A DNA stretch of 37,002 nucleotides, taken from assembly GCA_900319635.1 (NCBI GenBank), contig ONPF01000015.1, forward strand, positions 1-37,002, written 5' to 3'. Below the pieces are notes generated by a model. It was given only the letters and a program-made list of their open reading frames with translations, was not told the origin of the DNA and did no database searches. The position numbers and the translations under genes were made by a program. This document shows positions 3-21,497 of the stretch, in pieces (within the stretch, counting starts at the first letter, position 1; each line of letters opens with the position of its first letter). Source of the DNA: an uncultured Eubacteriales bacterium. GTDB lineage: Bacteria > Bacillota > Clostridia > Oscillospirales > Oscillospiraceae.

Positions 3-16
3 CACTTCCCACTCCT
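3..16 (-). promoter_or_regulatory. Possible ribosome binding site and GTG start of a next gene beyond the left edge
   Basis: Downstream of the iolG stop, the minus strand reads AGGAGT (16-11), five bases, then GTG (5-3). This is the spacing of a translation start, so the inositol operon probably continues off the window. Only two bases follow the putative start codon, so the gene cannot be identified. Confidence 0.35.
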
Positions 17-46
17 GTCCCGAATCCGATCATCGTCTATGTAGTT

Positions 47-1084
47 TCAGCAGTAGAGCTCCGGTTTCTCGATGGTATCCACCTTCAGGAACCGGGAGGT
101 TCCGCGGGAGGCATTCAGGGCGTCGCCGGCAACACAGGCCACATAGCCGTCCCAGGCGGAGGGGCCGGTGAGTTTGCCCTTGTTCACAGAGTCTGCCCAG
201 GCGCTCAGTTCGATGTCATAGGCTTCGATGAAGCGCTCCTTCCAGTCGGTCATAATGGGCATGCACTCGGCGGGGTTCAGGCTGTCCCAGCCGGCAGGGC
301 GGGAGCGGCGGACCACGGCGTAGGGATCGGGGAGCTTCACGGTACCGTTCTCGCAGACGACCTCGCACTGGATGTCATAGCCATAGCCGTCGGCCACCTG
401 GACTTCCACGTCGATGAAGCAGCCCTTCTTGGTACGCAGCAGAACGACCTGGGGGTTGTCATAGCCCTTGGTGGAGTTGGCGCTCTGGCGCACGCGCACG
501 CACTGGGCATCCTCGTACTCATCGCTCAGCAGCCAGCGGCAGATGTCCAGCTCGTGGATGGCCACATTGGTGATGCCGTTTTCGGTCTTGAAGCCCGGCC
601 CCTGGGAGACATTGCGGTGGCAGGCCTTGATGAGCAGGGGCGCGCCCAGCTCGCCGGAGTCGATGATACGCTTCATCTCGGCATAGCCCCGGTCATAGCG
701 GCGCATGAAGCCCACCTGTACCAGGCGCTTGCCGATCTCCAGCTCGCGGGCGATGATCTCCTCGCAGTCCGCCGCGTTCTGGCTCAGGGGCTTTTCACAG
801 AAGCACCACTTCTCGTGTTTGAGCACCTCCATCACATAGTCATGATGGGTGGAGTCGATGGAGGTGATGACCACTGCTTCCACCTCGGGATCCGCGATCA
901 GGCCATTGCAGTCGCTGCCGAAGGAGCGGATGCCGTACTTGGCAGCCAGATCATCCGCGCTCCGTGCAGTGTTGGAGGCCACAGCCACCACAGTGGCGCC
1001 GGGGACCCTTTCGATGATGCGGCGGCAGTGATCCTTGCCGATGGCTCCGCAGCCGATCAAGCCAACTTTCAAAACCTTATCCAA
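47..1084 (-). CDS. iolG: Gfo/Idh/MocA-family inositol 2-dehydrogenase
   Basis: Likely NAD-dependent oxidation of myo-inositol to 2-keto-myo-inositol (scyllo-inosose), the first step of inositol breakdown in the cytoplasm. The N-terminal Rossmann motif is GLIGCGAIGKDH, followed by the family EKPLS lysine motif and a C-terminal domain containing AIHELDICRW, where the catalytic Asp/His pair is expected. I place the start at TTG (1084-1082) because AAGGAGGAG lies six bases upstream and the Rossmann fold begins at once, giving 345 residues. A longer frame from 1153 would overlap the end of iolD and has no such site. Last visible gene of the operon, 13 bases after iolD. The family also includes scyllo-inositol and other sugar dehydrogenases, so the context decides the name. 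Confidence 0.85.
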   Translation of the reverse strand: MDKVLKVGLIGCGAIGKDHCRRIIERVPGATVVAVASNTARSADDLAAKYGIRSFGSDCNGLIADPEVEAVVITSIDSTHHDYVMEVLKHEKWCFCEKPLSQNAADCEEIIARELEIGKRLVQVGFMRRYDRGYAEMKRIIDSGELGAPLLIKACHRNVSQGPGFKTENGITNVAIHELDICRWLLSDEYEDAQCVRVRQSANSTKGYDNPQVVLLRTKKGCFIDVEVQVADGYGYDIQCEVVCENGTVKLPDPYAVVRRSRPAGWDSLNPAECMPIMTDWKERFIEAYDIELSAWADSVNKGKLTGPSAWDGYVACVAGDALNASRGTSRFLKVDTIEKPELYC

Positions 1085-1097
1085 TGTTATCTCCTCC

Positions 1098-3023
1098 TTA
1101 AAACTTTCTGGCAGTCTCCACATGGGCTGCCGTATCCCGGTAAGCTTCCACATTCCGGGGATTCTCGCTGACCTCGGTGTCGCCCACGCGCCACCAGGAA
1201 CCGTAGCCCTCGGTCATGGACTTGGGCAGTACGCGGATATCGAAGAGCACCGGCACATCCTTGATGAATTTGGCCTCCGCGATGGCGGCGCGCAGCTGCT
1301 CCAGGCTGCGGACGGTGTAGCCCTTGCAGCCGTAGCCCTCGGCGATCTTGGCAAAATCCACCGGCATGAAGGGGCCGGAGTGCTTTCCATCCTCGCCCCG
1401 GAAGCGCAGCTCCGTGCAGAGGGTGTCGTTGCCGTGGCCCACCTGCAGGTTGTTGATGCAGCCGAAGCTTGCATTGTTGAACAGGCAGATGTTGATCTTC
1501 TTATGCTCCTGGAGAGCGGTGAGCATCTCGGAATGGAGCATGATGAAGCTGCCGTCGCCGGCCATGGCGTAGACGTCCCTGTCGCCGATGGCGTACTTCA
1601 CGCCCAGGGCGCCGGAGATCTCATAGCCCATGCAGGAGTAGCCGTACTCCATATGATAGGTATCAAGAGCCTTGGGGCGCCACATACGCTGCATATCGCC
1701 CGGCAGTGAGCCGGAGGCGCCGATGACCACGTCCTCGGGGTCGATGCATTCGTTGATTACGCCCAGGACCGCGGTCTGGGTCAGTTCAGCATCCAGATCC
1801 TCAGCAAAGCGGAAGGCGGATTTTGCATTGGCATCCTTGACCTCGGGCACGTAATCCGGGCCGAAGGTGATGCCATCAAGACGCTTCAGCTCCTGTTTCC
1901 AGCGGGCAATGGCCTCGTCCACCTCGGTGGTATAGGGGGCCTTGTAGCCCTCCAGTTCCCTGAGCAGGGCGGGCAGAGCCATCTTGGCATCCGCCACCAG
2001 GGGAACGGCAGCGTCCATCTTCAGGGCCTGGAACTCGGAGACGTTGATGTTCACGAACTTGGCGTCGTCCCGGAAGAGCCACTTGGAAGAGGTGGTAAAG
2101 TCGGTGTAGCGGGTGCCAACGCCGATGATCAGGTCTGCGTCCTTGGCGATCTCATTGGCGGCGGAGCAGCCGGTGACGCCGATGCCGCCCAGGTTCAGGG
2201 GGTGATCCCAAACCACGGCGCTCTTGCCCGCCTGGGTCTCGCCAAAGGGGATGCCGGTGACTTCCGCGAAGGTGCGGAACTGCTCGTGGGCTTCGCTGTA
2301 GCGAACGCCGCCGCCGCAGATCATCAGGGGGCGCTTGGCGGCGCGAATGAGGGCGGCAGCCTCCTTGAGAGCCTCTTCCTCGGGCAGGCGGCGAGCCAGA
2401 CGATGGACCCGTTTGCGGAAGAAGCTCTCGGGGTAATCATAGGCCTCGCCTTCCACATCCTGCGGCATGGCAAGGCAGACGGCGCCGGTATTGGCGGGGT
2501 CGGTCAGCACGCGCATGGCGGAGATCATGGCGCTCATCAGCTGCTCGGGCCGGACGATGCGATCCCAATAGCGGCAGACAGCGCGGAAGGCGTCGTTGGT
2601 GGAGAGGGACAGATCATGGATCTGCTCTACCTGCTGCAGCACCGGATCCGGCTGGCGGCAGGCATATACATCGCCGGGCAGGATCAGCACGGGGATGTTG
2701 TTGGCGGTGGCGGTGGCGGCGGCGGTGACCATGTTGGCAGCGCCGGGGCCAACGGAGCTGGTGACGGCAATGATCTTTTTGCGCTTGCACTGGCGGGCGA
2801 AAGCCACGGCGGTATGGGCCATGCCCTGCTCGTTCTTGCCCTGCCAGACGTGCATCCGGTGGGCCTCCTGGCCCAGAGCCTGACCCAGGCCCACCACATT
2901 GCCGTGGCCGGGCAGCATGATCACACCCTCCACAAAGGGATGCTCAATGCCGTCATAGGCGATATACTGGTTTTCCAGGAAGCGGACCAGGGCCTGCGCC
3001 ATAGTCAGACGTACGGTTTTCAT
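1098..3023 (-). CDS. iolD: 3D-(3,5/4)-trihydroxycyclohexane-1,2-dione hydrolase (ThDP-dependent)
   Basis: Opens the ring of the diketo-inositol made by IolE to give 5-deoxy-D-glucuronate. The 641 residues show the acetolactate-synthase-like three-domain architecture. The N-terminal PYR domain carries the expected catalytic Glu region ([20 protein letters not shown]), and the C-terminal PP domain carries the ThDP/Mg motif beginning AGDGSF and ending near [11 protein letters not shown]. Length and the long N-terminal region match IolD rather than acetolactate synthase. It starts at ATG 3023 with AAGGAGG nine bases upstream and lies 11 bases after iolB. Together with iolB, iolE and iolG it gives a complete route from myo-inositol to 5-keto-2-deoxy-D-gluconate. 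Confidence 0.93.
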
Positions 3024-3034
3024 CGTCTTCCTCC

Positions 3035-3835
3035 TTATCCCTTGAAGATGTGGTCGTTGGCATCCGGCTTCCAGAGCCAGGCGTGTTCGGGGTCGTCGAT
3101 GCGGGTCTTCAGCCAGGGATCTCCGTCCAGGTGGCGGATGCCCCAGGAGTAGCAGAGGGCGTAGCCGGGTGCGGTGACCTGGGAGTGGAAGCCCGATGTG
3201 ATGACGCTCATGCCGTTGTGCTGGGTTTTGTAGATCTCGCCGTTGGCAAAGCCCGCGCCGAAGCCCTGGGGATGGTCAAAGCGGTAAAAGTACACCTCCG
3301 GCTGAGGATGGTGGTGGGGCGGGTAGCTGGACCACTTGCCGGGGTAGCTGAGCACCTCCCCCAGCACCATGTTGGAGAAGGGAGCGTTTTCATAATCGAA
3401 GAAGGTCTTGATTTCCCTCTTCATTGTGCCCATCAGCTCGCCCTTGGCGCCGGCGTGCTGGGTCTGCATGGTCTCCGGGGTGTACAGGACAGCTTCATAG
3501 TCCCGCTCGTTCAGGGTCTTCTGAATGTAGATCTCGCTGTGGCAGCGGGCGGTAAGGCAGATTTCGGTGCGGCGGGGAGCCAGCAGACAGTATGCCTCAT
3601 GATAAAAGCAGTCCGGGCGCTGGGCTTCAACGCGCTTGTCGTTCCAGGCAATCTCTACTGCGCCCTGGAAGAGCAGCACGGCGCATTCCTTCTCTTCCTC
3701 GCAGATGGTGAAGCTGTCCCCTTCCTCCATGAGCAGCAGGCCCACGTCCATCATAGTGCCATAGTCGTCCTCAGCGGTGTCGATATAGGTATTGTAGCCC
3801 CGCTGCAGCTCGGTGTTCTTATTCAGGTAAGTCAT
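3035..3835 (-). CDS. iolB: 5-deoxy-glucuronate isomerase
   Basis: Aldose-ketose isomerase turning 5-deoxy-D-glucuronate into 5-keto-2-deoxy-D-gluconate (DKG). It is a cupin-type protein of 266 residues. The metal-site stretch [16 protein letters not shown], followed by HPQGFGAGF, is the IolB signature. The start is taken at ATG 3835, seven bases after the iolE stop, because the earlier in-frame ATG (3889) lies inside iolE. Its ribosome site (GAGG) is weak, which suggests coupling to iolE translation. The product is the branch point discussed for this operon: a D-threo ketose acid normally phosphorylated by IolC, a gene not seen here. Confidence 0.93.
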
Positions 3836-3842
3836 GCTTGCC

Positions 3843-4712
3843 TCACAGTCCGGTATGCTCGCGGATATAGCGCCGCCCCTTGATGGCATACTCCAGCGGA
3901 TCGGCCTTGGCCGGATAGCCTGCCTCGCTCAGCACCTGAAACACGGGATCGAAATTCACATCGCCGTCGCCGGGGACGGTGAAGGCGCCGTTGCGCACGG
4001 CGGTGAGGAAGCTCCAGTTGTTCTTTCTGGCCTCCTCCACCACACGGAGGCGCATGTCCTTCAAATGCACATGGCCCACCCGGTCCACATACTTTTTCAG
4101 CATGGCCAGGGGATCTTCGCCGGCAAAGGTGAAGTGGCCGGTGTCATAGCAGAGGAACACGGCCTCCGGGTCGGTGTTGGCCATCATGCGGTCGGTCTCC
4201 TCCGAGGTCTGCACCACAGTGCCCATATGGTGGTGGAAGCAGAGCTTGAAGCCCCGCTCCCGGGCTACCCTTCCCAGCTTGTTCAGCCCGTCGCAGAAGC
4301 GGTCCCACTCGGCATCGTTCATCACATATTTGTGACCGCCGGTGAGAATGGGGACCTCCGTCTTCCCCTGGATCGAGTAGCTCTGCTCGCTGACATTGAT
4401 GCGGTTGGCGCCTACAGCCGTGAGGAAGTCCAGCTCCCGGATGAAGTCCGCCTCCACCTCCTCATAGGGCTTGGTCAGCAGAAAGGAGGAGAACCAGCGG
4501 CTGGCGATGCGCATGCCGCGCAGGTCCAGCTGCCTTTTCAGCTCCACAGGATCGCTGGGGTATTTGTTGCCGATCTCACAGCCGGTGAAGCCCGCCAGGG
4601 CCATCTCGCTGACCGTCTGCTTGAAGGTGTTCTCCGCGCCCAGCTCGGGCATGTCATCATTGCACCAGCCGATGGGCGCAATGCCGAGAAAAACAGTTTT
4701 GGGGTCAAACAT
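3843..4712 (-). CDS. iolE: Myo-inosose-2 dehydratase
   Basis: Dehydrates 2-keto-myo-inositol to the trihydroxycyclohexane-1,2-dione used by IolD. The 289 residues form a xylose-isomerase-like TIM barrel. Family hallmarks are the N-terminal PIGWCNDDMPELG stretch, GCEIGNKYP, and the metal-site sequences HHHMGTVVQT, YDTGHFTFAG and HVHLKDMR. A good ribosome site (GGGAGG) precedes ATG 4712. It follows the Ldh_2-family gene by 18 bases in the same operon. Nothing looks truncated. Confidence 0.93.
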   Translation of the reverse strand: MFDPKTVFLGIAPIGWCNDDMPELGAENTFKQTVSEMALAGFTGCEIGNKYPSDPVELKRQLDLRGMRIASRWFSSFLLTKPYEEVEADFIRELDFLTAVGANRINVSEQSYSIQGKTEVPILTGGHKYVMNDAEWDRFCDGLNKLGRVARERGFKLCFHHHMGTVVQTSEETDRMMANTDPEAVFLCYDTGHFTFAGEDPLAMLKKYVDRVGHVHLKDMRLRVVEEARKNNWSFLTAVRNGAFTVPGDGDVNFDPVFQVLSEAGYPAKADPLEYAIKGRRYIREHTGL

Positions 4713-4730
4713 CCCTTTCTTCCTCCCTTT

Positions 4731-5795
4731 TCAAGCGTTAAAATGTGCAACCAATCCGGCGAAGTCGGTCCCCTCCTCCACCGCGCCCAGGCTGATGGAA
4801 AGCTCCGTCAGTTCCCGGGCCAGAGCCTCGCTCACCGCAAAGCCCGTCTTTTTCATCTCATCAAATTTCCGATATTCGATCTCGCCCGGCAGGAAGATCT
4901 CCTGCACGCCGGGAGCCTTGCGTCCGTCCTTCATCATGCGCACATAGCGGTCCACCTCGTCCTTGAATTGCTCGATGGGCATGAATTTGCCGGGATCGAT
5001 CACGATCACGCAAAAGCCGGTGTTTTCCTTTTCCAGCTTGGAGAACAGGCCCAGATCCGTGCCGAAGCAGGCGGCAGAGAACATGGTGCTGAGCACGTCC
5101 ACCATTACAGCCAGACCATAGCCCTTATGCCCCGCGATGGGAGACAGGGAGAAGGCCTTTCCGGGGTCCGTGGTGGGAGCGCCGTCATAGTCCTTGGCCC
5201 ACTCCGCGGGAATGGACTGGCCCTCCCGCTCGGCCGCCTGGATTTTGCCCATGGCCACGCAGGTGGTGGAGATGTCCATCACGATGGGATACTCCTTCCC
5301 CGCCGGAACCCCCAGGATGATGGGGTTCGTGCCGATGAGCCGATCCGCCCCTCCGAAAGGCGAGGTGAAGGCATAGGTGTTGCAGCAGACCAGCGCCACC
5401 ATATCGTCCGCAGCGGCGCGCCAGCCGTAATAGGAGCCGCAGCCGATGTTGGCATTGTGGCGTCCCACTGCCATGGCGATGCCGAATTCTCTGGCCTTCT
5501 CCTTCGCCAGGTCATAGGCCTTGTTTACGGAAACGATTCCGGAGCCGTTATCACAGTCGAACACCAAAACGGCGCCGGTGTCAAGTAATTTTTCAAATCT
5601 GGGTTTGTTGTTCAGGGAGCCTGCCTTGATCTGACGCAGATAGCGGGTCAGGCGGGACAGGCCATGGGAATACACGCCGGTAAAGTCTGAGTGGGCGATG
5701 ACCTTGGCAATGATCTCCGCGTCCCCTTCCGGAAAGTCCGAGGCGGTGAGAATGCCGCGAACCAGGCGCACCTCTTCTTCATAGCCGATATTCAT
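4731..5795 (-). CDS. Ldh_2-family (malate/L-lactate-type) NAD(P)-dependent dehydrogenase
   Basis: Member of the malate/L-lactate/ureidoglycolate dehydrogenase family (non-Rossmann fold). Visible marks are the SHGLSRL motif near the N-terminus, GRHNANIGCGSYYG, NPIILGVPAG, and the late GHKGYGLAVMVD stretch. The start is ATG 5795 with GAAGGAAA upstream, giving 354 residues; the longer frame from 5963 lies within the LarA-like gene. Members oxidise or reduce 2-hydroxy/2-keto acids, and sequence alone does not fix the substrate. Beside a LarA-type racemase and a predicted D-malate-forming chain, L-malate to oxaloacetate is the most economical reading (inference). Alternatives are another hydroxyacid or a DKG reductase. 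Confidence 0.8.
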   Translation of the reverse strand: MNIGYEEEVRLVRGILTASDFPEGDAEIIAKVIAHSDFTGVYSHGLSRLTRYLRQIKAGSLNNKPRFEKLLDTGAVLVFDCDNGSGIVSVNKAYDLAKEKAREFGIAMAVGRHNANIGCGSYYGWRAAADDMVALVCCNTYAFTSPFGGADRLIGTNPIILGVPAGKEYPIVMDISTTCVAMGKIQAAEREGQSIPAEWAKDYDGAPTTDPGKAFSLSPIAGHKGYGLAVMVDVLSTMFSAACFGTDLGLFSKLEKENTGFCVIVIDPGKFMPIEQFKDEVDRYVRMMKDGRKAPGVQEIFLPGEIEYRKFDEMKKTGFAVSEALARELTELSISLGAVEEGTDFAGLVAHFNA

Positions 5796-5814
5796 AGCAT
5801 TTCCTTCTTTCGAT

Positions 5815-7065
5815 TCAGTTACGGATCCTGGGCAGCGTGGAACCTCCAAAGGGCATGGCCAGAACGCTGGCGTCTGTGCCAAGCTCCCGGAAGGCAGCGT
5901 CCAGGGCCTGCTGGGCTGAGGGCATGGGCTTGAGGAAAATCGAACGGACGAAGTCCTCTTCAAGGTCTGAGACCAGGAAGACCTTGGCCTTCTGCAGGGT
6001 CATGGCGATGGCCGCGGCCTTGTGCCCGCCCAGCTGGAAATCCCTGCCGATGCGCTCGATCATGGCCTCCGGTGAGGGGGATGTGGTCATCCACTCCTCA
6101 AACACCCGCTCGCCCAGACCCTCCCGGCAGGAGCCGATCAGGATGATGATGCCGCCCTGGCGCACCGCGTGGCGGGCATTGTCCAGGGCCTTCTGGGTCT
6201 GGTACAGGTTCAGGTCCTTTGGCGCTCCCCCCTGGCTTACGATCACGATATCCGCAGGCTCCTCAAGACGCTTGAGATAGATGGTGTCCAGGAAAGCGCA
6301 GAGCTTCCGATGGGCTGCCGTCACATCTCCGGCAGCCGCGCACAGGATCTCCTTGTGCTCGCCCAGCACCACATTCAGGATAAAGTCGATCCCGCAGATG
6401 GCCCCGGCCTCCTCGATGTCCATACGCAGGGGATTTCCTTCCAGATTTCCGGCGCAGGCCTCCGGGCGCACCATCATGGAGTGATTCGACTGAATGGCCG
6501 CCCTTGTGGAGCAGCCCGGCATGATCGCCTTGGCCCCGCCGGAATAGCCGGCGAAATAATGGTACTCCACATTCCCCAGGCAGATCCTCCGATCCGCCTC
6601 GGCCACAACCCGTGTAATATCCACCGGGGTTCCCGCCTTGGTGACGCCCAGGTGCACGCAATCGGCCGGATCGCTGTCTACGCAGCGGATCTCCCGCCAG
6701 GCCCGCTCCCCCGCCAGGCGGCGCTTCTCCTCATCGCTCTGACGTCGGTGGCTGCCCAGGGCAAAGACCAGCGTGATATCCTCCGGTCGGATCCCCGCGG
6801 CATAGAGCTCATCCAGCAGCGGGGGCATCACCTTGGCCGTGGGCATGGGCCGGGTCAGATCGCTGGTGATGATGGCAACAGTCTGGCCGGGATGAAGGAT
6901 CTCCCTCAGGCGCGGCGATCCCACAGGCTCCCGCAAGGCCCGGCGCACTTCTTCCTCCTCCGAGGCGATGGCGGGGGCCGCGTTTGCCCGCAGCACCCCC
7001 ATCAGGTTCTTCTCGGGCAGCTCCACAGTCTGCACACCGCTGCCCATTCCGAATTCCAGCTTCAT
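5815..7065 (-). CDS. LarA-family nickel-pincer racemase/epimerase, possibly a malate racemase
   Basis: Homologue of lactate racemase LarA, whose Ni-pincer nucleotide cofactor is made by LarB, LarC and LarE (none in this window). In 416 residues, the positions matching LarA catalytic and cofactor residues are kept: SDLTRP (Asp69, Arg72), GSHR (His106), VEYHYFAGYSGGAKAIMPG (His169, Lys179) and NHSMM (His195). The start at ATG 7065 overlaps the transketolase C-subunit stop in an ATGA. The family is known to include malate and other 2-hydroxyacid racemases and sugar-acid epimerases. Its neighbours (PGK-like kinase upstream, Ldh_2 dehydrogenase 19 bases downstream) favour interconversion of D- and L-malate. 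The family call is firm; the substrate is inferred. Confidence 0.85.
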   Translation of the reverse strand: MKLEFGMGSGVQTVELPEKNLMGVLRANAAPAIASEEEEVRRALREPVGSPRLREILHPGQTVAIITSDLTRPMPTAKVMPPLLDELYAAGIRPEDITLVFALGSHRRQSDEEKRRLAGERAWREIRCVDSDPADCVHLGVTKAGTPVDITRVVAEADRRICLGNVEYHYFAGYSGGAKAIMPGCSTRAAIQSNHSMMVRPEACAGNLEGNPLRMDIEEAGAICGIDFILNVVLGEHKEILCAAAGDVTAAHRKLCAFLDTIYLKRLEEPADIVIVSQGGAPKDLNLYQTQKALDNARHAVRQGGIIILIGSCREGLGERVFEEWMTTSPSPEAMIERIGRDFQLGGHKAAAIAMTLQKAKVFLVSDLEEDFVRSIFLKPMPSAQQALDAAFRELGTDASVLAMPFGGSTLPRIRN

Positions 7066-8030
7066 TTCGTCTGTTTCCTCTTCACGGCCTCCCGCGCGGC
7101 ACGGGTCACATGCTCCGCCGTCAGGCCGAAGCGCTGCTGCAGATAGCCCTGGGGACCCACCTCGCCGAAGCAATCCTCCACAGCCACCGCCTCCAGCGGT
7201 GTGGGGCAGCGGCGGGCCAGCAGCTCGCTCACAGCAGAAGTAAGGCCGCCGATCCGGTTGTGATTTTCCGCTGTGACCACGGCACCGGTCTTTCCAGCCC
7301 AGGCCAGCACAGTCTCCTCATCCAGGGGTTTCACGGTAAAGCAGTCCACCACCGCGGCGCTGATGCCCTCTTCCTCCAGGGTTTTGGCGGCCTGCATGGC
7401 CTCATGGACCAGAATGCCGCAGGCGAAGATCACAACATCCGTGCCCTCCCGCAGCGTCACGGCCTTGCCAATGGGCAGCTCGCTTCCCTCCGCATAGACC
7501 TTGGCATAGCTCTTGCGTCCCACGCGGATGTACTTCACCCCCGGGCGATCCTTGCACTGGCGCAGGACGCTTATGAGCATGGTGGGGTCGGTAACGTCGA
7601 TCACGGTGGCGCCGGGAATGGCCCGGTAAAGCGCCATGTCCTCAAAGGGCATGTGTGTTCCGCCGTTCATGGCGGCGGTGACTCCTGGGTCGGTTCCGAT
7701 TACGGTGATGTCGTTTTTCGCGTAGCCAGCCGAAAGGAACAGCTGGTCGTAGCAGCGGCGGGAGGCAAAGGGTCCGAAGGTATGCACCATAGGCTTGAAG
7801 CCCGCAGCGGCCAGGCCGCAGGCCACGCCGATCATGTTGGCCTCAGCAATGCCGCAGTTGATCGCGCGGTCTGGATTGGCAGCGGCCCACTTGGCGGTGC
7901 CGATGCAGTTCATCAGATCAGCATCCAGATAGATAAAGTCAGGGTCCTCCGCAGCCAAGGCAGGGATGGTCTCCCCCAGCACGCTCTTGCAGAGGCGGGG
8001 ATCCATGCTGCCGTCATATACGATCTTCAT
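7062..8030 (-). CDS. Transketolase, C-terminal subunit (split enzyme)
   Basis: Carries the PYR and C-terminal domains of a two-subunit transketolase, 322 residues. The catalytic Glu that activates ThDP is in CGIAEANMIGVA, followed by the typical HTFGPFASRRCYDQ stretch and a C-terminal domain ending KQTK. It overlaps the N-subunit gene by four bases (ATGA), with GGGAGGTGG as ribosome site, so the subunits are made together. Split transketolases in catabolic operons often act on non-housekeeping ketoses, as in apulose-phosphate and sulfofructose pathways. Here the operon product DKG is a ketose with the 3S,4R (D-threo) arrangement that transketolases use as donor. The acceptor is not identifiable from sequence. 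Confidence 0.9.
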   Translation of the reverse strand: MKIVYDGSMDPRLCKSVLGETIPALAAEDPDFIYLDADLMNCIGTAKWAAANPDRAINCGIAEANMIGVACGLAAAGFKPMVHTFGPFASRRCYDQLFLSAGYAKNDITVIGTDPGVTAAMNGGTHMPFEDMALYRAIPGATVIDVTDPTMLISVLRQCKDRPGVKYIRVGRKSYAKVYAEGSELPIGKAVTLREGTDVVIFACGILVHEAMQAAKTLEEEGISAAVVDCFTVKPLDEETVLAWAGKTGAVVTAENHNRIGGLTSAVSELLARRCPTPLEAVAVEDCFGEVGPQGYLQQRFGLTAEHVTRAAREAVKRKQTK

Positions 8031-8869
8031 GCTTCCACCTCCCAGGCCTGTTTTTCAGCCTCCAACGCCTTGGTCCAGCGCTCGTACTGCTCATCGCTCA
8101 CCGGCAGGCTGTGGTTCATGACCTTTTCGGCCACCTCCTGCACACCTGCGCCCTTCACCGTGTCCAGCACAATGGCATAGGGCCGTTCACCGCCCGCTCT
8201 GGTGCGCTCCAGAGCAGGGATAAGCTCGTCGATATTGTTGCCGTTTACCTTCACGGTGTCAAAGCCGAAGGCTTCCAGCTTCTGAACATAGTCCCCCATG
8301 GGGTAAACGTCCTCGGTCCAGCCGTCCAGCTGCCGCTTGTTCCAGTCCAGCAGAACGACCAGATTTCCCAGCTTCTTTGCAGAGGCAAAGGCGAAGGCCT
8401 CCCAGACCTGGCCCTCGTTGCTCTCCCCGTCGCCCACGATGAGGAAAACGCGGCTGTCTCGGCCGCGGAGCTTGTCTCCCAGGGCCATACCGCAGGCAAG
8501 AGACGTACCCTGGCCCAGGGAGCCGGTGGTCATATCAACGCCGGGGGTCTTATTGCGGTCACAGTGGCTGGGCAGGCGGGTACCCGGTCGGTTCAGGGTC
8601 TTCAGCTCCTCATAGGGGAAAAAGCCCTTCAGCGCCAGGGTGCCGTACACGGCAGGTCCTGCATGGCCCTTGGAGCAAACCAGCTTGTCCCGCTCGGGCC
8701 ACTTGGGATCTTGGGGATCATAGCGCATTTCTCTGCCGTAAAGCACGGCCAGTACATCCGCAATGCTCAGCGCGCCGCCGATATGGCCCGAGCCGATGGC
8801 ATGGATGGCTTCAATGGCGGCTATGCGAATCTGGCAGGCAAAGGCTTTCAGTTTTCTGTTCTCGTCCAT
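8027..8869 (-). CDS. Transketolase, N-terminal subunit (ThDP-binding)
   Basis: PP domain of the split transketolase, 280 residues. It shows GSGHIGGALSIADVL, SKGHAGPAVYGTL, MTTGSLGQGTSLACGMAL, and the ThDP/Mg motif GDGESNEGQVWEA running to LDWN. The start is ATG 8869 with GAAGGGAG upstream, one base after the PGK-like stop; the earlier ATG at 8902 lies inside the PGK-like gene. It must pair with the C subunit (7062-8030). Its position between the PGK-like kinase and the racemase argues for a role in the inositol route, not for general pentose-phosphate metabolism. Confidence 0.9.
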   Translation of the reverse strand: MDENRKLKAFACQIRIAAIEAIHAIGSGHIGGALSIADVLAVLYGREMRYDPQDPKWPERDKLVCSKGHAGPAVYGTLALKGFFPYEELKTLNRPGTRLPSHCDRNKTPGVDMTTGSLGQGTSLACGMALGDKLRGRDSRVFLIVGDGESNEGQVWEAFAFASAKKLGNLVVLLDWNKRQLDGWTEDVYPMGDYVQKLEAFGFDTVKVNGNNIDELIPALERTRAGGERPYAIVLDTVKGAGVQEVAEKVMNHSLPVSDEQYERWTKALEAEKQAWEVEA

Positions 8870-8870
8870 T

Positions 8871-10130
8871 TCATGCTCCCTTCTCGGGAATGGCGGAGCC
8901 ATGGCGCAGCGCCCGCACCACGGGCAGCTCCTCTCCGCTCAAGAAGCGGATCAGCGCGCCGCCGCCGGTGCAGATATAGCCCATCTTTTCCGTCAGCTCG
9001 TACTTTTCCGTGGCGGTGATGCTGTCGCCCCCTCCCAGAACGGTGTACCCCTTGGTATCGGCAATAGCCTGCCACACGGCCTTGGTACCGTACTCGCTGG
9101 CCGCCTGTTCAAAGACGCCCATGGGGCCGTTGACGAATACCGTGCCCGCCGAGAGGATGGCCTCCCGGTAGGTTTTGGCCGTCCAATAGCCCACATCCAC
9201 CGCGGCGATTTCCGCCGGGATTTCGCCCACCAGAGCCTCCTGGCGTTTGCCGTCCTTCACCCAGGCCAGATCCTTGGGCAGCTGGATCTTGTCGCCGTAG
9301 CGCACATACAGGGTCTTCGCCTTCTCGATGAATTCTCCGTAATTGGATTTGTAGATAAAGTCCAGGCTGCCCTGGCCGATGCCGCTGCCGGCGGCGGCCA
9401 GGAAGATGTTTCCCACAAGGCCCCCTGTGAGGATCGTGTCCGCTACGCCCCGGGAGAGCACCGTCTCCATCATCTGGAACGCGTCGGCGATCTTGGCGCC
9501 GCCCAGCACGAACACGCAGGGCCGCTCCGGCTGCTCCATCACCTGGGACACCGCACAGTATTCCTGCTCAAAGAGCCGGCCCATGGCGGAGGGAAGCACC
9601 TGCTCAAAGCCGCAGAGGCTTGGCTGATTCCGATGGGCGGCAGCAAAGGCGTCACACACATAGAGGTCTGCCAGAGGAGCGAGTTTTTCCACCAGCTGGG
9701 TCTTAGCCTGCTCAACGTGGCTCAGGCGCAGCTTCTGTTCAAAGAGGGTCTGCTCCTCCGCCATAAAACGGACGTTGTCCAGCAGCAGGATTTCCCCTTC
9801 CCTCAGGCCGCGGATGGCTTCCCGGGCAGCGGGACCGCACACATCGTCGATCCACTTCACTTCCCGGCCCAGCAACTGAGTCAGCACAGAGGCATGGGGC
9901 TTGGTGCTATAGTAGTTTTTATATTCGATGTCGCTTCCCTGATGGGCCAGCAGCACCAGCTTTGCTCCCTTGTCCGCAAGCTCCCGCACCGTGGGCACGC
10001 AGGCTCGGATACGGTTGATGCTTTTCAGGGTGCCGGTGGCCCGGTCCACGGGCTGGTTGATGTCCACCCGGCAGAGAACGGTTTTCCCCCGCACGGAAAC
10101 CTCGTCCAGGGTACGGATCCCAAATCGCAT
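8871..10130 (-). CDS. Phosphoglycerate kinase-like acyl-phosphate kinase (archaeal-like)
   Basis: PGK-family protein of 419 residues. Family motifs are CRVDINQPV (Arg21, Asp23, Asn25), RIRACVPT (Arg40), LLDNVRFMAEE, CDAFAAAHRNQPS, VLGGAKIADA, VNGPMGVFE and VLGGGDS near the C-terminus, so the ATP-binding half looks intact. The usual HxGRP segment reads HQGSDIE (residues 63-69), putting Ser66 where the phosphate-binding Arg of canonical PGK is expected. That residue is recalled, not aligned. The start at ATG 10130 has AAGGAGG and follows the GAPDH-like gene by 10 bases. If the GAPDH-like enzyme makes D-malyl phosphate, this kinase would form ATP and D-malate. The alternative is an ordinary 1,3-bisphosphoglycerate kinase. 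Confidence 0.85.
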   Translation of the reverse strand: MRFGIRTLDEVSVRGKTVLCRVDINQPVDRATGTLKSINRIRACVPTVRELADKGAKLVLLAHQGSDIEYKNYYSTKPHASVLTQLLGREVKWIDDVCGPAAREAIRGLREGEILLLDNVRFMAEEQTLFEQKLRLSHVEQAKTQLVEKLAPLADLYVCDAFAAAHRNQPSLCGFEQVLPSAMGRLFEQEYCAVSQVMEQPERPCVFVLGGAKIADAFQMMETVLSRGVADTILTGGLVGNIFLAAAGSGIGQGSLDFIYKSNYGEFIEKAKTLYVRYGDKIQLPKDLAWVKDGKRQEALVGEIPAEIAAVDVGYWTAKTYREAILSAGTVFVNGPMGVFEQAASEYGTKAVWQAIADTKGYTVLGGGDSITATEKYELTEKMGYICTGGGALIRFLSGEELPVVRALRHGSAIPEKGA

Positions 10131-10140
10131 GGCGCCCTCC

Positions 10141-11196
10141 TTAGCTCTTGAAGCGGCCGATGTTCAGGTTCCGGTTGGTGGCCTCGGTAGCCTCGGCACT
10201 GGTTTGCTGCAGCTGCATCACTGCGCGCACGCCGTCGATGGTCTCCGGGATGGTGACGCTCTCCTGGGGGATGTGGATGGCGAACATGATGTCGTTGCCG
10301 CTCTCCACCACGCTGTCCTCCCAGAGGCCGATCTCATACAGGTCAGCCCTGCGGTTGCCAAGGTCGCGGGCATACTTGAAGAAGCTGGCGTTGCCCTTGA
10401 AGCCCTCGTCGATGGTGACAGTGCGGATCCTGGGGTGGCTGCGGAAGGCCTGGATGGCCTCCTCTCTGGTGATTTTTCTGCCGTCCTTGGCGGTAGCCAG
10501 CACGGTGATGATGTGGCCATGGGTCACGGGGGTGTGTACCAGGATACCGGTAGCCTCGATATGGGGCATGATGGTCATCAGGTCCACGGCCTGGTGGCTG
10601 GGGGCTTTCTCCATCTGCAGGGCGTTTGTGAGCCCCCTGTGATAATCCCCGGGGTCAGCCACGCGGCGGATGATGGTGATAGCCACCTTTTCGATGCCGA
10701 ACTTTCTGTCCAGGCAGTCCACCGCACGGATGAGGCCTGTGGTGTTGCAGCTGGTCAGCTTCAAAAACTGCTTGCCCAGGCCCAGCTCATAGTTGGCATA
10801 GCCGTGGAAGAACACATCGGCCACACTGTTTTTCTCGCCGCCCTGGAAAATGGCCTTCACACCCAGGCGCTCGTATACTGCCTTGTTGGCAGCACCGGTG
10901 CCGCCGGGAGAGGCGTCCAGCATCACATCCACCTTGGCGCAAAGCTCCTCAAAGCTGCCCTCCACCGGAATGCCGAGGGCATCGAACTTGGGCTTCAGCT
11001 CCATATCCACCAGATAGAGCTTGTACTCCACGCCGTTTACACCGATCATGTTGTTCTCCGCCAGAGCCCGGATGGCCAGGGACGGAGAATGCCCCACGAT
11101 ACCGACCAGCTCCATGTCCTCCTGCAGTGCCACGCCATCAGCCAGTCTTGTGCCAATGGTGCCGTAGCCCGCTACGCCGACTTTTACTTTTGCCAT
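10141..11196 (-). CDS. Archaeal-type (type II) glyceraldehyde-3-phosphate dehydrogenase-like enzyme
   Basis: First gene of the inositol operon, 351 residues from ATG 11196 (GAGGAAAGG upstream). The Rossmann motif is VAGYGTIGTR (residues 8-17) and the catalytic Cys is in TSCNTTGL (Cys150), both typical of archaeal GAPDH and unlike bacterial GapA (SCTTN). After Cys150 the sequence reads RRVADPGDYHRGLTNA and PSHQAVDL. From memory, archaeal enzymes have KKGP/KRGP and PSHHGPDV at these points, so the substrate-phosphate region appears altered. It would oxidise an aldehyde to an acyl phosphate with NAD(P). In context, (R)-3-hydroxy-4-oxobutanoate is a candidate substrate; plain glyceraldehyde 3-phosphate is the null alternative. 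Confidence 0.86.
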   Translation of the reverse strand: MAKVKVGVAGYGTIGTRLADGVALQEDMELVGIVGHSPSLAIRALAENNMIGVNGVEYKLYLVDMELKPKFDALGIPVEGSFEELCAKVDVMLDASPGGTGAANKAVYERLGVKAIFQGGEKNSVADVFFHGYANYELGLGKQFLKLTSCNTTGLIRAVDCLDRKFGIEKVAITIIRRVADPGDYHRGLTNALQMEKAPSHQAVDLMTIMPHIEATGILVHTPVTHGHIITVLATAKDGRKITREEAIQAFRSHPRIRTVTIDEGFKGNASFFKYARDLGNRRADLYEIGLWEDSVVESGNDIMFAIHIPQESVTIPETIDGVRAVMQLQQTSAEATEATNRNLNIGRFKS

Positions 11197-11263
11197 GATC
11201 CTTTCCTCGCTTTCTTGGTGTTTTCCGGGGCTGCGCAAAAACGTCCCGGTTGTTTTCACGCAG

Positions 11264-11292
11264 ATTTTAGCATTTCATTGTTAACTTGTCAA
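11264..11292 (-). promoter_or_regulatory. Promoter of the inositol catabolic operon
   Basis: On the minus strand, TTGACA (11292-11287), a 17-base spacer and TAAAAT (11269-11264) form a near-consensus vegetative promoter, about 70 bases before the GAPDH-like start. The spacer contains an operator-like half site (TTGTTAA on the plus strand at 11278-11284), so a repressor bound there would block the promoter. Confidence 0.8.
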
Positions 11293-11356
11293 TTTATATT
11301 GTTGTTTTCTTGTTATTTCTTTGTGCTGTTTTTTGTTAACTTAACAAATTTAACAA
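11278..11356. promoter_or_regulatory. Operator cluster, probably for the DeoR-family regulator
   Basis: A perfect 17-bp palindrome lies at 11332-11348 (TTTGTTAA, C, TTAACAAA). An imperfect copy at 11278-11292 (TTGTTAACTTGTCAA) has two mismatches to the palindrome core. A further half site, TTAACAA, is at 11350-11356. The sites flank or overlap the two divergent promoters. That is the expected layout for one regulator controlling its own gene and the catabolic operon. Binding by the adjacent DeoR protein is inferred. Confidence 0.65.
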
Positions 11357-11431: not shown

Positions 11432-12190
11432 ATGCGAGACAGCCGCAGAAAAGAGATTGCCGCCTACATCACCCGTCGGGGTTCGGTCACCATGCCGGAG
11501 CTGTGCGAGACCTTTCATGTATCCATGAACACCATTCGGGCAGACGTGTCCTTCCTGGAACAGACCGGTACCGTGGAGAAGGTCTATGGCGGTGTCCGCG
11601 CCGTACAGCAGCAGGAGATCCCCCTCTTCGCCCAGCGGGCCCAGCTGCACACCGAGGCCAAGCGGGCCATCGTACGGCAGGCGGCCTCTCTGGTGAACGA
11701 CGGGGACACGCTGTTCGTGGACGCCGGTACCACCACCATGCACCTTCTGGATGTGCTGCCGCTGGAGATCCACGCCACCATCGTAACCGGCAACCTCCAC
11801 ATCATCGCCCAGGCCTACACCCGCCCCAATCTGGAGCTGATCGTGCTGCCCGGCGCGCTGAACCGTCGCACAAACTCCGTCTCCGATGTGAGTACGCTGG
11901 AATTCTTGGGCCGCTATCACTTCGGGAAGGCCCTGATGGCAGCCACCGGTCTCTCCGCCGACGGGAAGCTGAATGTATCCTCCTATCTGGATCATGAGAT
12001 CAAGCACCTGGCCGTGCAGCAGAGCGATCACCGCATTCTGCTGTGCGACTCGGCAAAGTACGGCGCAGCCGGTCTCATGAGCTACGCCAGTCTGAAAGAT
12101 ATGGACCGCCTGATCACCGACACTCTCTGTCCCCCGGAGCTCCGCGCCCTCTGCCGCAGCTTCGGCACCTTGTTGGAGATCGCCGAATAG
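11432..12190 (+). CDS. DeoR/GlpR-family transcriptional regulator, probable inositol repressor
   Basis: 252 residues. The N-terminal winged helix-turn-helix (residues about 5-58) includes the family sequence VSMNTIRADVSFLEQTGTVEKVYGGV. The C-terminal sugar-phosphate-sensing DeoRC domain includes FVDAGTTTMHLL, VTGNLHI, GALNRRTNSVSD and LLCDSAKYG. DeoR regulators of this type, such as IolR, usually repress and are released by a phosphorylated intermediate. Here no inositol-pathway kinase gene is visible, so the inducer may differ. It is divergent from the catabolic operon across a 235-bp region holding palindromic operators, and heads an operon with a PHP and a NUDIX protein. Confidence 0.88.
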   Translation: MRDSRRKEIAAYITRRGSVTMPELCETFHVSMNTIRADVSFLEQTGTVEKVYGGVRAVQQQEIPLFAQRAQLHTEAKRAIVRQAASLVNDGDTLFVDAGTTTMHLLDVLPLEIHATIVTGNLHIIAQAYTRPNLELIVLPGALNRRTNSVSDVSTLEFLGRYHFGKALMAATGLSADGKLNVSSYLDHEIKHLAVQQSDHRILLCDSAKYGAAGLMSYASLKDMDRLITDTLCPPELRALCRSFGTLLEIAE

Positions 12191-12210
12191 CAGAAGAAAG
12201 GATCCTGCCC

Positions 12211-12900
12211 ATGTACAAGATCGAACCGCACCTGCACACCAACCACGTCAGCCGCTGCGGACGGCTGGAGGCAAAAGAGATCGTGGCCGGATACAAGGCC
12301 GCGGGCTACAGCGCGCTAATCGTCACCGACCACTTCAACCGCACCACCTTTGAGCACCTGGGGATCGACCCCGCCGGGAAGAGCGACCGGATCGGCGCCT
12401 TCCTGGAGGGCTATCGCCGCGTCCGGGAGGAAGGCGAGCGCCAGGGCCTGCGGGTCTTCAAGGGCGCGGAGCTGCGCTTTGACGAGTGCGAGAACGACTA
12501 TCTGCTCTACGGCTGGGCGAACGAGCTGCTGGCGGAGCCGGAAGAGATTTTCCGCATGGGCATCGCCGCCTTCTCCCCCATCGCCCGGGGGCAGGGCGCG
12601 CTGCTGATCCAGGCCCACCCCTATCGTCACGGCTGCACCCCGGCCATCGCCCGGTATCTGGACGGGGTGGAGGTTTACAACGCCAATCCCCGGCACGACA
12701 GCCGGGATGCGCTGGCTTTCCATTATGCGCAGGAGTTCGGTCTGATCGGCACCGCCGGGTCCGATTGCCACCGGACCGAGGATATTGCCCGGGCAGGCAT
12801 CGGCATAGAGTGCCTTCCCAGCGACTCCATGGAGATGATGCATCTGCTCCGGTCCCGCAACTTCCGCCTGCTGAAAAACGGGGAGGTTTTTGAGCCATGA
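12211..12900 (+). CDS. PHP-domain metal-dependent hydrolase/phosphoesterase
   Basis: 229 residues forming a single PHP domain. The metal-ligand motifs are in order: PHLHTN (His7, His9), VTDHFN, KGAELRF (Glu), QAHPYRHG (His) and TAGSDCHR (Asp, His). PHP proteins include histidinol phosphatases, nucleoside 3',5'-bisphosphate phosphatases and polymerase-associated domains; the substrate here is unknown. ATG 12211 has AGAAAGGA upstream and follows the regulator by 20 bases. The earlier in-frame ATG at 12043 is inside the regulator. Co-transcription with an inositol regulator suggests a phosphoester connected to inositol use, but that is only inference. Confidence 0.85.
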   Translation: MYKIEPHLHTNHVSRCGRLEAKEIVAGYKAAGYSALIVTDHFNRTTFEHLGIDPAGKSDRIGAFLEGYRRVREEGERQGLRVFKGAELRFDECENDYLLYGWANELLAEPEEIFRMGIAAFSPIARGQGALLIQAHPYRHGCTPAIARYLDGVEVYNANPRHDSRDALAFHYAQEFGLIGTAGSDCHRTEDIARAGIGIECLPSDSMEMMHLLRSRNFRLLKNGEVFEP

Positions 12901-20262: not shown

Positions 20263-20289
20263 GCCCCGCGGCAATGCGCCGCGGGGTTT
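20263..20289. terminator. Bidirectional terminator between convergent genes
   Basis: CCCCGCGGC pairs with GCCGCGGGG around a five-base loop, with TTTCC on the plus side and CTTTTAT on the minus side. It can serve the anti-sigma-like gene and the VanX-like gene. Confidence 0.8.
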
Positions 20290-20291
20290 CC

Positions 20292-21200
20292 TTACGGTTC
20301 CGTGTTTTGCAGCTCATCCAGCGGGACGTAGCCCTGCTGGCCAAGGTACTCCACCCGGGCAAAGCCCTTTGCATAGCCCAGGATCGTGAGGCTCGTCCCG
20401 CCCGGGATCCGCGTCAGGGCGGGGGCGTGGGGATCCGGCGCGGTGCGCAGCGTGAGCTCCCGCTCCCCCGCCGGGCAGTAGAGCTGCCCCTCTGCGGGCA
20501 GGCGGATCGCCTCCAGATCCTCATAGGGATAGGCGTCGCTGTCGGTATAGTGCCACCACTCCCCGGCGTAGGGGACGAAGCCCGCAACCACCATGGCCTG
20601 CTCCAGGATCCGGGCGTGCTCCGCCGCCTCCGGGGACACGTCGCTGTAATCCCGGTCGGCCAGAGGGGAAAACTCGTCAAAGCCGGAGGGCATCTCCACC
20701 GGGGAGCCGTCCAGGGCAACAAGCGTTATGTCAACCGTTCCGCCGTTGCTGTGACCGGAGTGTCCGCCGTAGGGGTTCGCCACATAGACCGGGTCGGGGA
20801 CGACGCTCCACAGGACGTACTGGGCGGACTGGGGGCGGAAGGCGTCCCAGATCAGCAGCTCGTAGCCCTGAGCGTTCAGGCTCTCCTCCGCCGCGCGGAG
20901 CTTTTGCACCGTGCCGTATCGCAGCCAGGCCTCCGCAAAATCATAGATGACCTGCCCGGTGAAGTTGTTCTCTCCCGCGTAGCGCAGATCCACCCGGATC
21001 CCCGGCAGCTCTTCCTGCACCCGCAGCAGCTCATCATCTTCCGGCCGGATGGGCAGCACCGGCGTCGTGGGGAGGGCGATGGGCGCCGGCGTCTCTGCCG
21101 AAGGGGGCGGGCTTTCCTGCACGGTTCCCTGCGCGGCCCGGCCTCCGCCGCAGCCGCAGAGCAGCAGACAGAGCAGCAGCACGGCACAAGTTTTTTTCAC
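20292..21200 (-). CDS. VanX-like D-Ala-D-Ala dipeptidase lipoprotein with C-terminal SH3 domain
   Basis: Peptidase M15 family, VanX/DdpX type, on a lipoprotein scaffold. From the GTG at 21200 the signal is MKKTCAVLLLCLLLCGCGGG, with a lipobox (LCGC). ATG 21224, with its own AGAAGGG, is an alternative start. A Pro-rich linker follows. The catalytic zinc site is SGHSNGGTVDITL (SxHxxGxxxD) with the later GEWWHY (ExxH-type), and WDAFRPQSAQ supplies the conserved Arg. The last 60 residues (ELTLRTAPDPHAPALTRIPGG to GYVPLDEL) are a bacterial SH3 domain, likely binding the cell wall. Housekeeping cell-wall D,D-dipeptide turnover is more likely than vancomycin resistance, as no vanH or vanA is nearby. 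Confidence 0.87.
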   Translation of the reverse strand: MKKTCAVLLLCLLLCGCGGGRAAQGTVQESPPPSAETPAPIALPTTPVLPIRPEDDELLRVQEELPGIRVDLRYAGENNFTGQVIYDFAEAWLRYGTVQKLRAAEESLNAQGYELLIWDAFRPQSAQYVLWSVVPDPVYVANPYGGHSGHSNGGTVDITLVALDGSPVEMPSGFDEFSPLADRDYSDVSPEAAEHARILEQAMVVAGFVPYAGEWWHYTDSDAYPYEDLEAIRLPAEGQLYCPAGERELTLRTAPDPHAPALTRIPGGTSLTILGYAKGFARVEYLGQQGYVPLDELQNTEP

Positions 21201-21296
21201 GGCACTCCCCCCTTTCCGGCTCATTATATCCCTTCTCCCTCCCGCGGGCAAGTCGCCCCATCCGCTATTATGAAATCTTCAGATCCACGCATCTTC

Positions 21297-21411
21297 GCCG
21301 GGCACTGCCCGGCGCTGCGGGCGGATTCGCGCAGCCCTGTCCGTGTCTTGCACCCCTTCCGTCACGGCGCTTGCGGGGGACGCGCCGCGACACCTCCCCC
21401 GGAGGGGGAGG
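21297..21411. repeat. Hairpin-rich intergenic segment
   Basis: The gap 21201-21497 holds two compact palindromes: GCCGGGC-act-GCCCGGC (21297-21313) and CCTCCCCC-gga-GGGGGAGG (21393-21411). No gene was found between them. The second resembles a dispersed palindrome of related genomes. The rest of the gap holds the scfA promoter and the VanX-like ribosome sites. Confidence 0.45.
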
Positions 21412-21440
21412 CAATGTTCGGCAAAAAATCCCTGCGCATC

Positions 21441-21469
21441 TTGACTTGCGGGCCGGGGCGTGGTATAAA
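21441..21469 (+). promoter_or_regulatory. Promoter of scfA
   Basis: TTGACT (21441-21446), 17 bases, TATAAA (21464-21469), about 30 bases before the scfA ATG. The ribosome site GGAGGA is at 21485-21490. A strong promoter fits a small peptide made in quantity. Confidence 0.8.
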
Positions 21470-21497
21470 GAAGTATATTCTTTTGGAGGAAACAAAC

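Follow-up and report, generated by a model that had tools for sequence, protein, structure and literature searches.

A predicted transketolase branch of myo-inositol catabolism, yielding D-malate and ATP, in an uncultured Eubacteriales bacterium

How might a bacterium that encodes the first half of myo-inositol breakdown use the resulting 2-deoxy-5-keto-D-gluconate (DKG) when the usual kinase and aldolase genes are not found beside the others? This question is raised by an operon on contig ONPF01000015.1 of an uncultured Eubacteriales bacterium (assembly GCA_900319635.1). The stretch analyzed here (the window) is the entire contig (C35, 37,002 bases), and its left edge is the contig end; the source genome (G000) has 2.16 Mb on 52 contigs and is estimated to be 92% complete. 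Ten genes lie in a single minus-strand run, transcribed in the order type II glyceraldehyde-3-phosphate dehydrogenase (GAPDH-II), a phosphoglycerate kinase (PGK) paralogue, the N-terminal and C-terminal halves of a transketolase, LarA, Ldh_2, IolE, IolB, IolD and an IolG-like protein, with neighbors overlapping or separated by at most 20 bases when starts are set as in relatives. All ten were found with Pfam and NCBIfam, in agreement with a first-pass annotation that had joined these iol genes to the other six in one operon. We read the operon as a transketolase branch of myo-inositol catabolism that would yield D-malate and ATP, with a probability of about 0.75, where all substrates and the acceptor are inferred. 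This reading is supported in silico by four largely independent lines of evidence: gene exclusion, neighborhood replacement, residue changes and stereochemistry.

In the proposed pathway, IolG, IolE, IolD and IolB would make DKG as usual, and DKG would be left unphosphorylated. The split transketolase would move the two-carbon ketol unit of DKG to an aldehyde-phosphate acceptor, probably glyceraldehyde 3-phosphate, which would become xylulose 5-phosphate, leaving (R)-3-hydroxy-4-oxobutanoate (malate semialdehyde). The archaeal-type GAPDH would convert the latter, with phosphate, into malyl phosphate, from which the PGK paralogue would form D-malate and ATP. The nickel racemase LarA would turn D-malate into L-malate, to be used either by Ldh_2, giving oxaloacetate, or, in more of the relatives, by malic enzyme, giving pyruvate. 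Every step has a gene, as the first-pass annotation had held, and the family evidence matches; the kinase- and aldolase-free chain to malate proposed there gains in silico support from the exclusion of IolC, the malate-type LarA, the malic enzyme that replaces Ldh_2 in relatives and the lost phosphate ligands described below. Two of its points are revised. Malate stands as the predicted product, but in the D form, hence the racemase; the proposed end at oxaloacetate would hold where Ldh_2 is present but not in general, since malic enzyme would lead to pyruvate in relatives.

The stereochemistry, worked out by our own reasoning, fits this order of steps. With its CH2OH group drawn at the top, DKG is written CH2OH-CO-C(OH left)-C(OH right)-CH2-COOH. 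This is the D-threo arrangement also seen in fructose and xylulose, and the one that transketolase cleaves. What remains after cleavage is the C4 compound OHC-CH(OH)-CH2-COOH, configured like D-glyceraldehyde 3-phosphate but bearing CH2-COO- where the latter bears CH2-O-PO3. Oxidation of its aldehyde gives D-malate, so that a malate racemase is needed before either Ldh_2 or malic enzyme. The source genome encodes a phosphoketolase, which could form acetyl phosphate from xylulose 5-phosphate while restoring the acceptor. A phosphoketolase was dropped as a general sink for the two-carbon unit, since a full-length match occurs in no other of the 28 IolD-bearing genomes introduced below (their matches are short and weak).

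The first-pass annotation saw no iolC, iolJ or iolA, and none was recognized in the window here. No IolC exceeds the cut-off of 300 bits anywhere in the source genome. The best match, at 214 bits, is probably a fructokinase, since its surroundings resemble, by eye, a GH32 and sugar ABC transport (sucrose/sugar-like) locus. IolJ and IolA were sought by tblastn in the window, the part of the genome covered for these two, and neither was found. An IolC just past the left edge was considered and set aside, since this edge is the contig end and the whole genome lacks an IolC over the cut-off. Beyond the corresponding IolG, the next called gene is an ABC permease in five related loci (L006, L007, L009, L011, L024), while in the remaining related loci that have this IolG the sequence stops at that point or shows no further called gene in the displayed span. 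Across the window and 80 relative loci, tblastn at E 1e-8, with one query each, gave no match to IolC, IolJ or transaldolase. The IolA query matched two of the 80, L065 at 61% and L075 weakly at 25%.

The exclusion of IolC extends to the class. IolD scores over its cut-off in 28 of 391 sampled genomes of the class. Of these 28, 12 carry the PGK paralogue and 11 carry IolC over its cut-off, with no genome carrying both (Fisher 2.5e-4, genomes treated as independent). The paralogue was called at 44–100% identity to the PGK of the window, ordinary PGKs being at 35–40%. Counted by taxonomic family, the paralogue occurs in 10 and IolC in 5, and the 2 families that hold both kinds hold them in different genomes. 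Only 3 of the 363 genomes without IolD over its cut-off have the paralogue (Fisher 5.5e-13). It lies on the contig of IolD, within about 8 kb, in 9 of its 12 genomes, and IolC lies less than 3 kb from an IolD in all 11 IolC genomes by search coordinates.

The neighborhoods of the iol genes or of the paralogue suggest what stands in place of the kinase. These were fetched for all 17 genomes without IolC over the cut-off (the window serving for the source genome) and for two of the 11 with it, and the 28 genomes sort into kinase/aldolase (12), GAPDH-II/PGK (11) and transaldolase (5) types. The kinase type consists of the 11 IolC genomes and G057, whose IolC is in two pieces and adjoins an IolJ-like aldolase; IolC- and IolJ-like genes lie beside IolB/D in the neighborhoods of G243, G155 and G057, and the other nine were assigned from IolC search coordinates alone. 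The GAPDH-II/PGK type comprises G000, G340, G383, G109, G030, G098, G233, G322, G024, G270 and G347. A transketolase pair is found in the fetched loci of 10 of these 11, although not on the contig of IolD in G109 and G340. The remaining five genomes (G082, G037, G065, G093 and G179) have a transaldolase-like gene with IolG/E/D/B. In G082 this gene belongs to PF00923; matches to the NCBIfam transaldolase models stay below their cut-offs. An IolA-type dehydrogenase accompanies it in G037 (TIGR01722, 585 > 449), with counterparts in G093 (93% identical) and G065 (96%), and a SauS-like acylating aldehyde dehydrogenase in G082 (603 > 600), with one 85% identical in G179. Transaldolase acting on DKG would give malonate semialdehyde, and the transaldolase design is thus coherent too; we regard it as a probable design of inositol breakdown in these five genomes. 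If DKG is indeed cleaved in three ways, the designs would mirror the choice among Embden-Meyerhof-Parnas (EMP), transaldolase (TAL) and transketolase (TK) routes in sulfoglycolysis.

Relatives of the operon were taken as the best 80 of 109 confirmed loci from a PGK search, many of them cut by contig ends. Their genes were called by a home-made codon-scored caller, which missed the PGK of L073 that tblastn finds. Members of a clade are not independent: L059 and L116, both 81,572 long, are apparently one contig, and the PGKs of L002-L004 are 97–98% identical to that of the window. The nearest named relatives, at this same PGK identity, are metagenome-assembled Clostridia/Ruminococcaceae. The 80 loci contain GAPDH in 74, LarA in 73, the transketolase N and C halves in 55 and 53, IolB in 47, IolE in 45 and IolD in 42; the complete or partial recurrence of the set in 80 loci besides the window argues against chance. 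Among the 41 loci with IolB, IolD and IolE together, GAPDH and PGK are present in 39, LarA in 40 and both transketolase halves in 30. Of all parts of the cassette, the GAPDH-PGK pair varies least and is kept even where no transketolase is near. Malic enzyme takes the position of Ldh_2 in relatives. It is found in 15 of the 41 and Ldh_2 in 7, never together; across all 80 the counts are 33 and 8, again without co-occurrence. Such mutual exclusion is expected of two alternative ways of using L-malate.

The active sites of the transketolase and PGK are altered where an ordinary substrate would place its phosphate. Residue counts exclude PGKs below 380 aa, GAPDHs below 320 aa, transketolase C halves below 290 aa and loci L127-L135. 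In the C half of the transketolase, the position of the histidine that binds the donor phosphate, which we take to be His469 in yeast numbering, is an aspartate in 60 of 60 sequences from paralogue loci, some of which are not iol loci. The histidine is kept in two other split transketolases of the source genome and in the solved structures 6yaj and 6rjb; a third other transketolase of this genome has the aspartate and lies in a probable sulfoglycolytic transketolase (sulfo-TK) cluster. In a study of Faecalicatena, the motif is reported as RSFHR in ordinary transketolases and as RAFDR in those acting on sulfofructose (PMC11659671). The change of His to Asp seems, from these sequences, to go with unphosphorylated acidic donors.

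The PGK paralogue has the motif HQGSD in place of H[LQ]G[RK]P. At the Arg/Lys position of this motif, which presumably binds the 3-phosphate, the paralogues have Ser (81 of 82, with one gap) or Asp (10 of 10). Among the 3 of 46 solved matches that were aligned, 1php and 3uwd have Arg and 2cun has Lys, as does the canonical PGK of the source genome. The nucleotide-site residues Lys213 and Asp369 are conserved in 93 of 93 aligned sequences. Alignment position 42 varies (Val in the canonical PGK of the source genome), and position 40, a conserved Arg, is likelier to be the equivalent of R38. GAPDH-II keeps its catalytic Cys in 81 of 81 aligned sequences, and all 81 have Gln where the four solved archaeal enzymes shown have His (PSHH).

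Protein names were judged against curated NCBIfam cut-offs, supplemented by Pfam. IolD, IolE, GAPDH-II and LarA (as LarAH6) exceed these cut-offs, and GAPDH-II also passes NF003251 (385 > 185). The IolG-like protein falls below both NF052679 and TIGR04380 (184 < 355) and is named by family only, as is IolB, which is the sole KduI/IolB family match in the genome. The best solved structure for LarA is the malate racemase Mar2 (6d6z, 389 bits), followed by a lactate racemase (219 bits). The LarA of the window is, by model and by structure match, a malate-type racemase, with malate racemization as its predicted activity; the characterized LarAH6/Mar2 racemizes malate (PMC7583248). The solved structures nearest to Ldh_2 are L-sulfolactate dehydrogenases and type 2 malate dehydrogenases. 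For the PGK paralogue and GAPDH-II they are 2cun and 2czc, both of which we take to be from Pyrococcus. Genes for the nickel-pincer cofactor are represented on contig C32 by LarC (459 bits) and by adjoining LarB/LarE-like open reading frames (ORFs), recognized by eye only. LarC is in two adjacent pieces in three genomes (G179 C1 2777367-2778601, G233 C108 26311-27578 and G030 C5 79116-80365) and a single stretch in the other 17 genomes that have it.

Several observations weigh against the transketolase-to-malate pathway. The operon transketolase does not share the Ser to Ala change of RAFDR: its residue at this site is Cys, as it is in 49 of 50 close relatives; Ser is retained at this position in 8 of 8 members of a transketolase group at 44–49% identity, and the first Arg of the motif is found in 48 of 50 close relatives and 1 of 8 distant ones, where the alignment is poor. 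The PGK paralogue keeps the residues equivalent to R21, D23, N25, H62, R122 and R170. LarC does not discriminate between designs, being present in 9 of 12 PGK-paralogue genomes and 8 of 11 IolC genomes, and was dropped as a genome mark of this one. No transketolase was seen on the two contigs of G322 that were read, and G179 carries the PGK paralogue elsewhere in addition to its transaldolase iol operon. Among the 41 IolB, IolD and IolE loci, 11 lack a nearby transketolase pair and in 19 both malic enzyme and Ldh_2 are missing; where such a gene is lacking nearby, the model needs it elsewhere in the genome. The cassette also occurs without IolB/D/E, next to IolM/N/O or UxaE, where malate semialdehyde is not an expected intermediate. 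Finally, the classic GAPDH locus of the source genome (C24, 56747-57126) is split over two reading frames, through an assembly error or a broken gene, and GAPDH-II could be the only working GAPDH of this genome.

This last point bears on an explanation by ordinary enzymes, in which GAPDH, PGK and transketolase act on sugar phosphates and are co-regulated with the iol genes, while DKG is phosphorylated by a PfkB-type kinase encoded elsewhere and cut by a generic class II aldolase. Besides the split GAPDH, the genome does contain PfkB-type kinases (seven stretches matched, all below the IolC cut-off), and 18 of the 80 relatives have a PfkB-like gene close to the operon. However, no IolC model matched when one representative of the latter gene was scanned, and a second, canonical PGK is encoded on contig C25 (524 bits). 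Sugar-phosphate enzymes would also hardly account for the uniform loss of the phosphate-binding residue in both PGK and transketolase, for their clustering with a malate racemase and a malic enzyme, or for the failure of IolC and the PGK paralogue to meet in any of the 28 genomes. We consider this explanation improbable.

The transketolase step to malate might instead be right while GAPDH-II and PGK make no ATP from its product, the aldehyde being oxidized otherwise and the pair serving the glyceraldehyde 3-phosphate/xylulose 5-phosphate side. Type II GAPDH is usually glycolytic or gluconeogenic, the acceptor is probably glyceraldehyde 3-phosphate, and the PGK site retains its other conserved residues, all of which would suit such a role. 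Yet the ten operon proteins include no aldehyde dehydrogenase of the Aldedh family, GAPDH-PGK persists as the most constant part of the cassette even without a nearby transketolase, and the lost 3-phosphate ligand does not fit 3-phosphoglycerate as substrate, which makes this version quite improbable. That the cassette serves another sugar acid (for example a uronate, by way of 2,3-dihydroxy-4-oxobutanoate to tartrate) and merely borders the iol genes is very improbable: cassettes with IolM/N/O or UxaE neighbors do exist, and characterized malate racemases epimerize tartrate as a side activity (PMC11770544), but the GAPDH-PGK pair is present in 39 of 41 IolB, IolD and IolE loci and in one operon with these genes in the window, IolC over the cut-off is found in 0 of 12 IolD genomes with the paralogue, and malic enzyme and Ldh_2 point to malate.

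The proposed branch works like the sulfo-TK pathway of sulfoquinovose (SqvD, SqwGH, SqwI, SqwF/D) and shares the first half of the canonical myo-inositol pathway, but is a member of neither. According to PMC11659671, sulfo-TK also relies on a split transketolase whose donor is an acidic ketose without phosphate and whose acceptor for the ketol unit is glyceraldehyde 3-phosphate, and the two transketolases have in common the His to Asp change in the site for the donor head group. Sulfo-TK, however, cleaves sulfofructose twice, isomerizing the C4 aldehyde before cutting it again, whereas the operon is predicted to cleave DKG once and to oxidize the C4 aldehyde to malate with formation of ATP; the Ser to Ala change of the former is replaced by Cys in the latter. 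Neither a sulfoquinovose isomerase nor an RpiB-like isomerase was found in the operon by Pfam and NCBIfam, while a separate cluster on contig C32 has genes of both kinds. This cluster (L127, 3964-9149), a probable sulfo-TK cluster, contains a sulfoquinovose-isomerase-like gene (386 bits, cut-off 700), a split transketolase, an RpiB-like isomerase and an iron alcohol dehydrogenase.

The canonical route (IolG-E-D-B-C-J-A) has the four steps to DKG in common with the operon, and then proceeds through IolC, IolJ and malonate semialdehyde with a C3 + C3 split; the operon has none of these, and a C2 + C4 split is predicted. The Thermotoga-type inositol pathway (IolG, IolM, IolN, IolO) likewise does not use IolC/IolJ on DKG; there, IolN opens the ring to a keto-gluconate, and IolD/E/B are not used. 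IolM, IolN and IolO were not recognized among the scanned proteins of the window, to which the search for them was confined. The GAPDH and PGK belong to the same families as the glycolytic enzymes (archaeal types) and share their acyl-phosphate chemistry, but differ in their predicted substrates, malate semialdehyde and malyl phosphate, and in the loss of the phosphate-binding residue of PGK. The operon LarA matches Mar2 best but, unlike Mar2, is set in an inositol operon. Two LarA papers (PMC7583248, PMC11770544) mention neither transketolase nor phosphoglycerate kinase in their main text.

The cassette also lies beside other sugar-acid genes. GAPDH-PGK, transketolase and mostly LarA adjoin IolM/IolN/IolO-like or UxaE genes in L060, L063, L066, L081 and L134, an IolO-like gene alone lies beside the cassette in L069 and L078, and G109 has a second copy adjoining UxaE. 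These loci point to a uronate or Thermotoga-type inositol version, in which the C4 product would have an extra hydroxyl (tartrate level). The cassette is also found in spirochaetes (L050-L052 and L080, by their titles) and in Pelolinea submarina of the Chloroflexota (L073). We think it fairly likely that the cassette is a modular pay-off unit for unphosphorylated sugar acids in gut Clostridia and in spirochaete and Chloroflexota relatives, combining a phosphate-blind transketolase with an archaeal-type GAPDH and PGK re-specialized for a carboxylate, gaining ATP via malyl phosphate, and that DKG is cleaved in three ways. To our knowledge, although no search under that name was made, substrate-level phosphorylation through malyl phosphate has no precedent in nature.

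The diet brings large amounts of carbon into the gut and rumen as inositol and phytate. The predicted route would allow a gut bacterium and many relatives to use inositol without the usual kinase and aldolase. It would add an ATP-yielding reaction at malyl phosphate and a role for malate racemase, and would make the PGK paralogue a simple genomic mark for inositol users miscounted by IolC-based searches. No description of a transketolase-malate route was found among the papers listed by searches of an open-access library, in which subscription journals are mostly absent, so that an earlier description may exist. Passages of PMC5808187 and PMC8873060 give no account of it, and the word transketolase is absent from the main text of a genome survey of inositol utilization (PMC9430895), a paper on the Anaerostipes pathway and a pig-gut culture study (PMC12838507). 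In the survey, utilizers are defined by at least three of iolB/C/D/E, and lack of the fourth gene is explained by frameshifts, errors of assembly or incompleteness of the genome (PMC9430895). The culture study reports known clusters in only 19 of 40 inositol-growing isolates and suspects a route not yet identified (PMC12838507); these isolates are of other taxa and bear only on the question being open.

Coordinates of the operon genes and other features (window positions unless a locus is named; scores are given against cut-offs where a curated model applies).
Feature	Position	Strand	Evidence or remark
IolG-like inositol/inosose dehydrogenase (GFO_IDH_MocA)	47..1153	-	PF01408; NF052679 350 < 540; end 46 bases from contig edge
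IolD, trihydroxycyclohexane-1,2-dione (THcHDO) hydrolase (thiamine diphosphate, ThDP, enzyme)	1098..3023	-	TIGR04377 897 > 715
IolB, 5-deoxy-glucuronate isomerase	3035..3835 (ORF to 3889)	-	PF04962 157 bits; TIGR04378 98 < 205
IolE, inosose dehydratase	3843..4712	-	TIGR04379 352 > 290
Ldh_2, predicted NAD-linked L-malate dehydrogenase	4731..5795 (ORF to 5963)	-	PF02615 341 bits; start by relatives' length
LarA, predicted nickel-dependent malate racemase, LarAH6	5815..7065 (ORF to 7173)	-	NF052593 560 > 500
Transketolase C-terminal half (Pyr + C domains), Asp at residue 114	7062..8030	-	PF02779/PF02780
Transketolase N-terminal half, ThDP-binding	8027..8869 (ORF to 8902)	-	PF00456 162 bits
PGK paralogue, predicted malyl-phosphate (1-phospho-D-malate) kinase	8871..10130	-	PF00162 382 bits
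Archaeal-type (type II) phosphorylating GAPDH, predicted malate-semialdehyde dehydrogenase	10141..11196 (ORF to 11259)	-	TIGR01546 288 > 233
Promoter-like site facing the operon, TTGACA-17-TAAAAT	11264..11292	-	consensus scan, 11/12
Inverted repeat in divergent intergenic region, candidate operator	11333..11356	.	sequence
DeoR-family regulator, divergent, candidate IolR-like repressor	11432..12190	+	PF00455/PF08220
PHP-domain protein	12043..12900	+	PF02811
Transaldolase-like genes of five other loci	L118 7994-9070, L120 7862-8941, L121 6910-7986, L132 9425-10501, L133 6074-7150		no IolC in operons

The first-pass annotation had placed the operon at 3-11292; the genes themselves occupy 47-11259, and the earlier range also includes the promoter-like site. 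The consensus scan of this region gave 2 sites where 0.4 were expected, and the site facing the operon is a candidate by match alone. Several other loci likewise have a relative of the DeoR-family regulator opposite their GAPDH gene. A Nudix protein is encoded in the same direction as the regulator and the PHP-domain protein, opposite to the operon. Genes of the same sequence cluster as the PHP-domain gene occur in 28 of 80 loci, beside a regulator and, in several loci, next to a PfkB-like gene.

A phosphoglycerate-mutase-like (iPGM) protein has its halves in swapped order (a circular permutation, checked in L037 only, at 6281-7846). Its sequence cluster has members in 21 of 80 loci, and in inositol operons from the rumen it is accompanied by three or four phosphatases of the HAD type; the swapped-half protein, the phosphatases or both are possibly inositol-phosphate phosphatases. 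Elsewhere in the window, a 456-aa ORF (20274-21641, plus strand) matches the six-cysteine peptide SCIFF, normally a tiny precursor, over residues 411–453, and represents either a long fusion or a wrong start.

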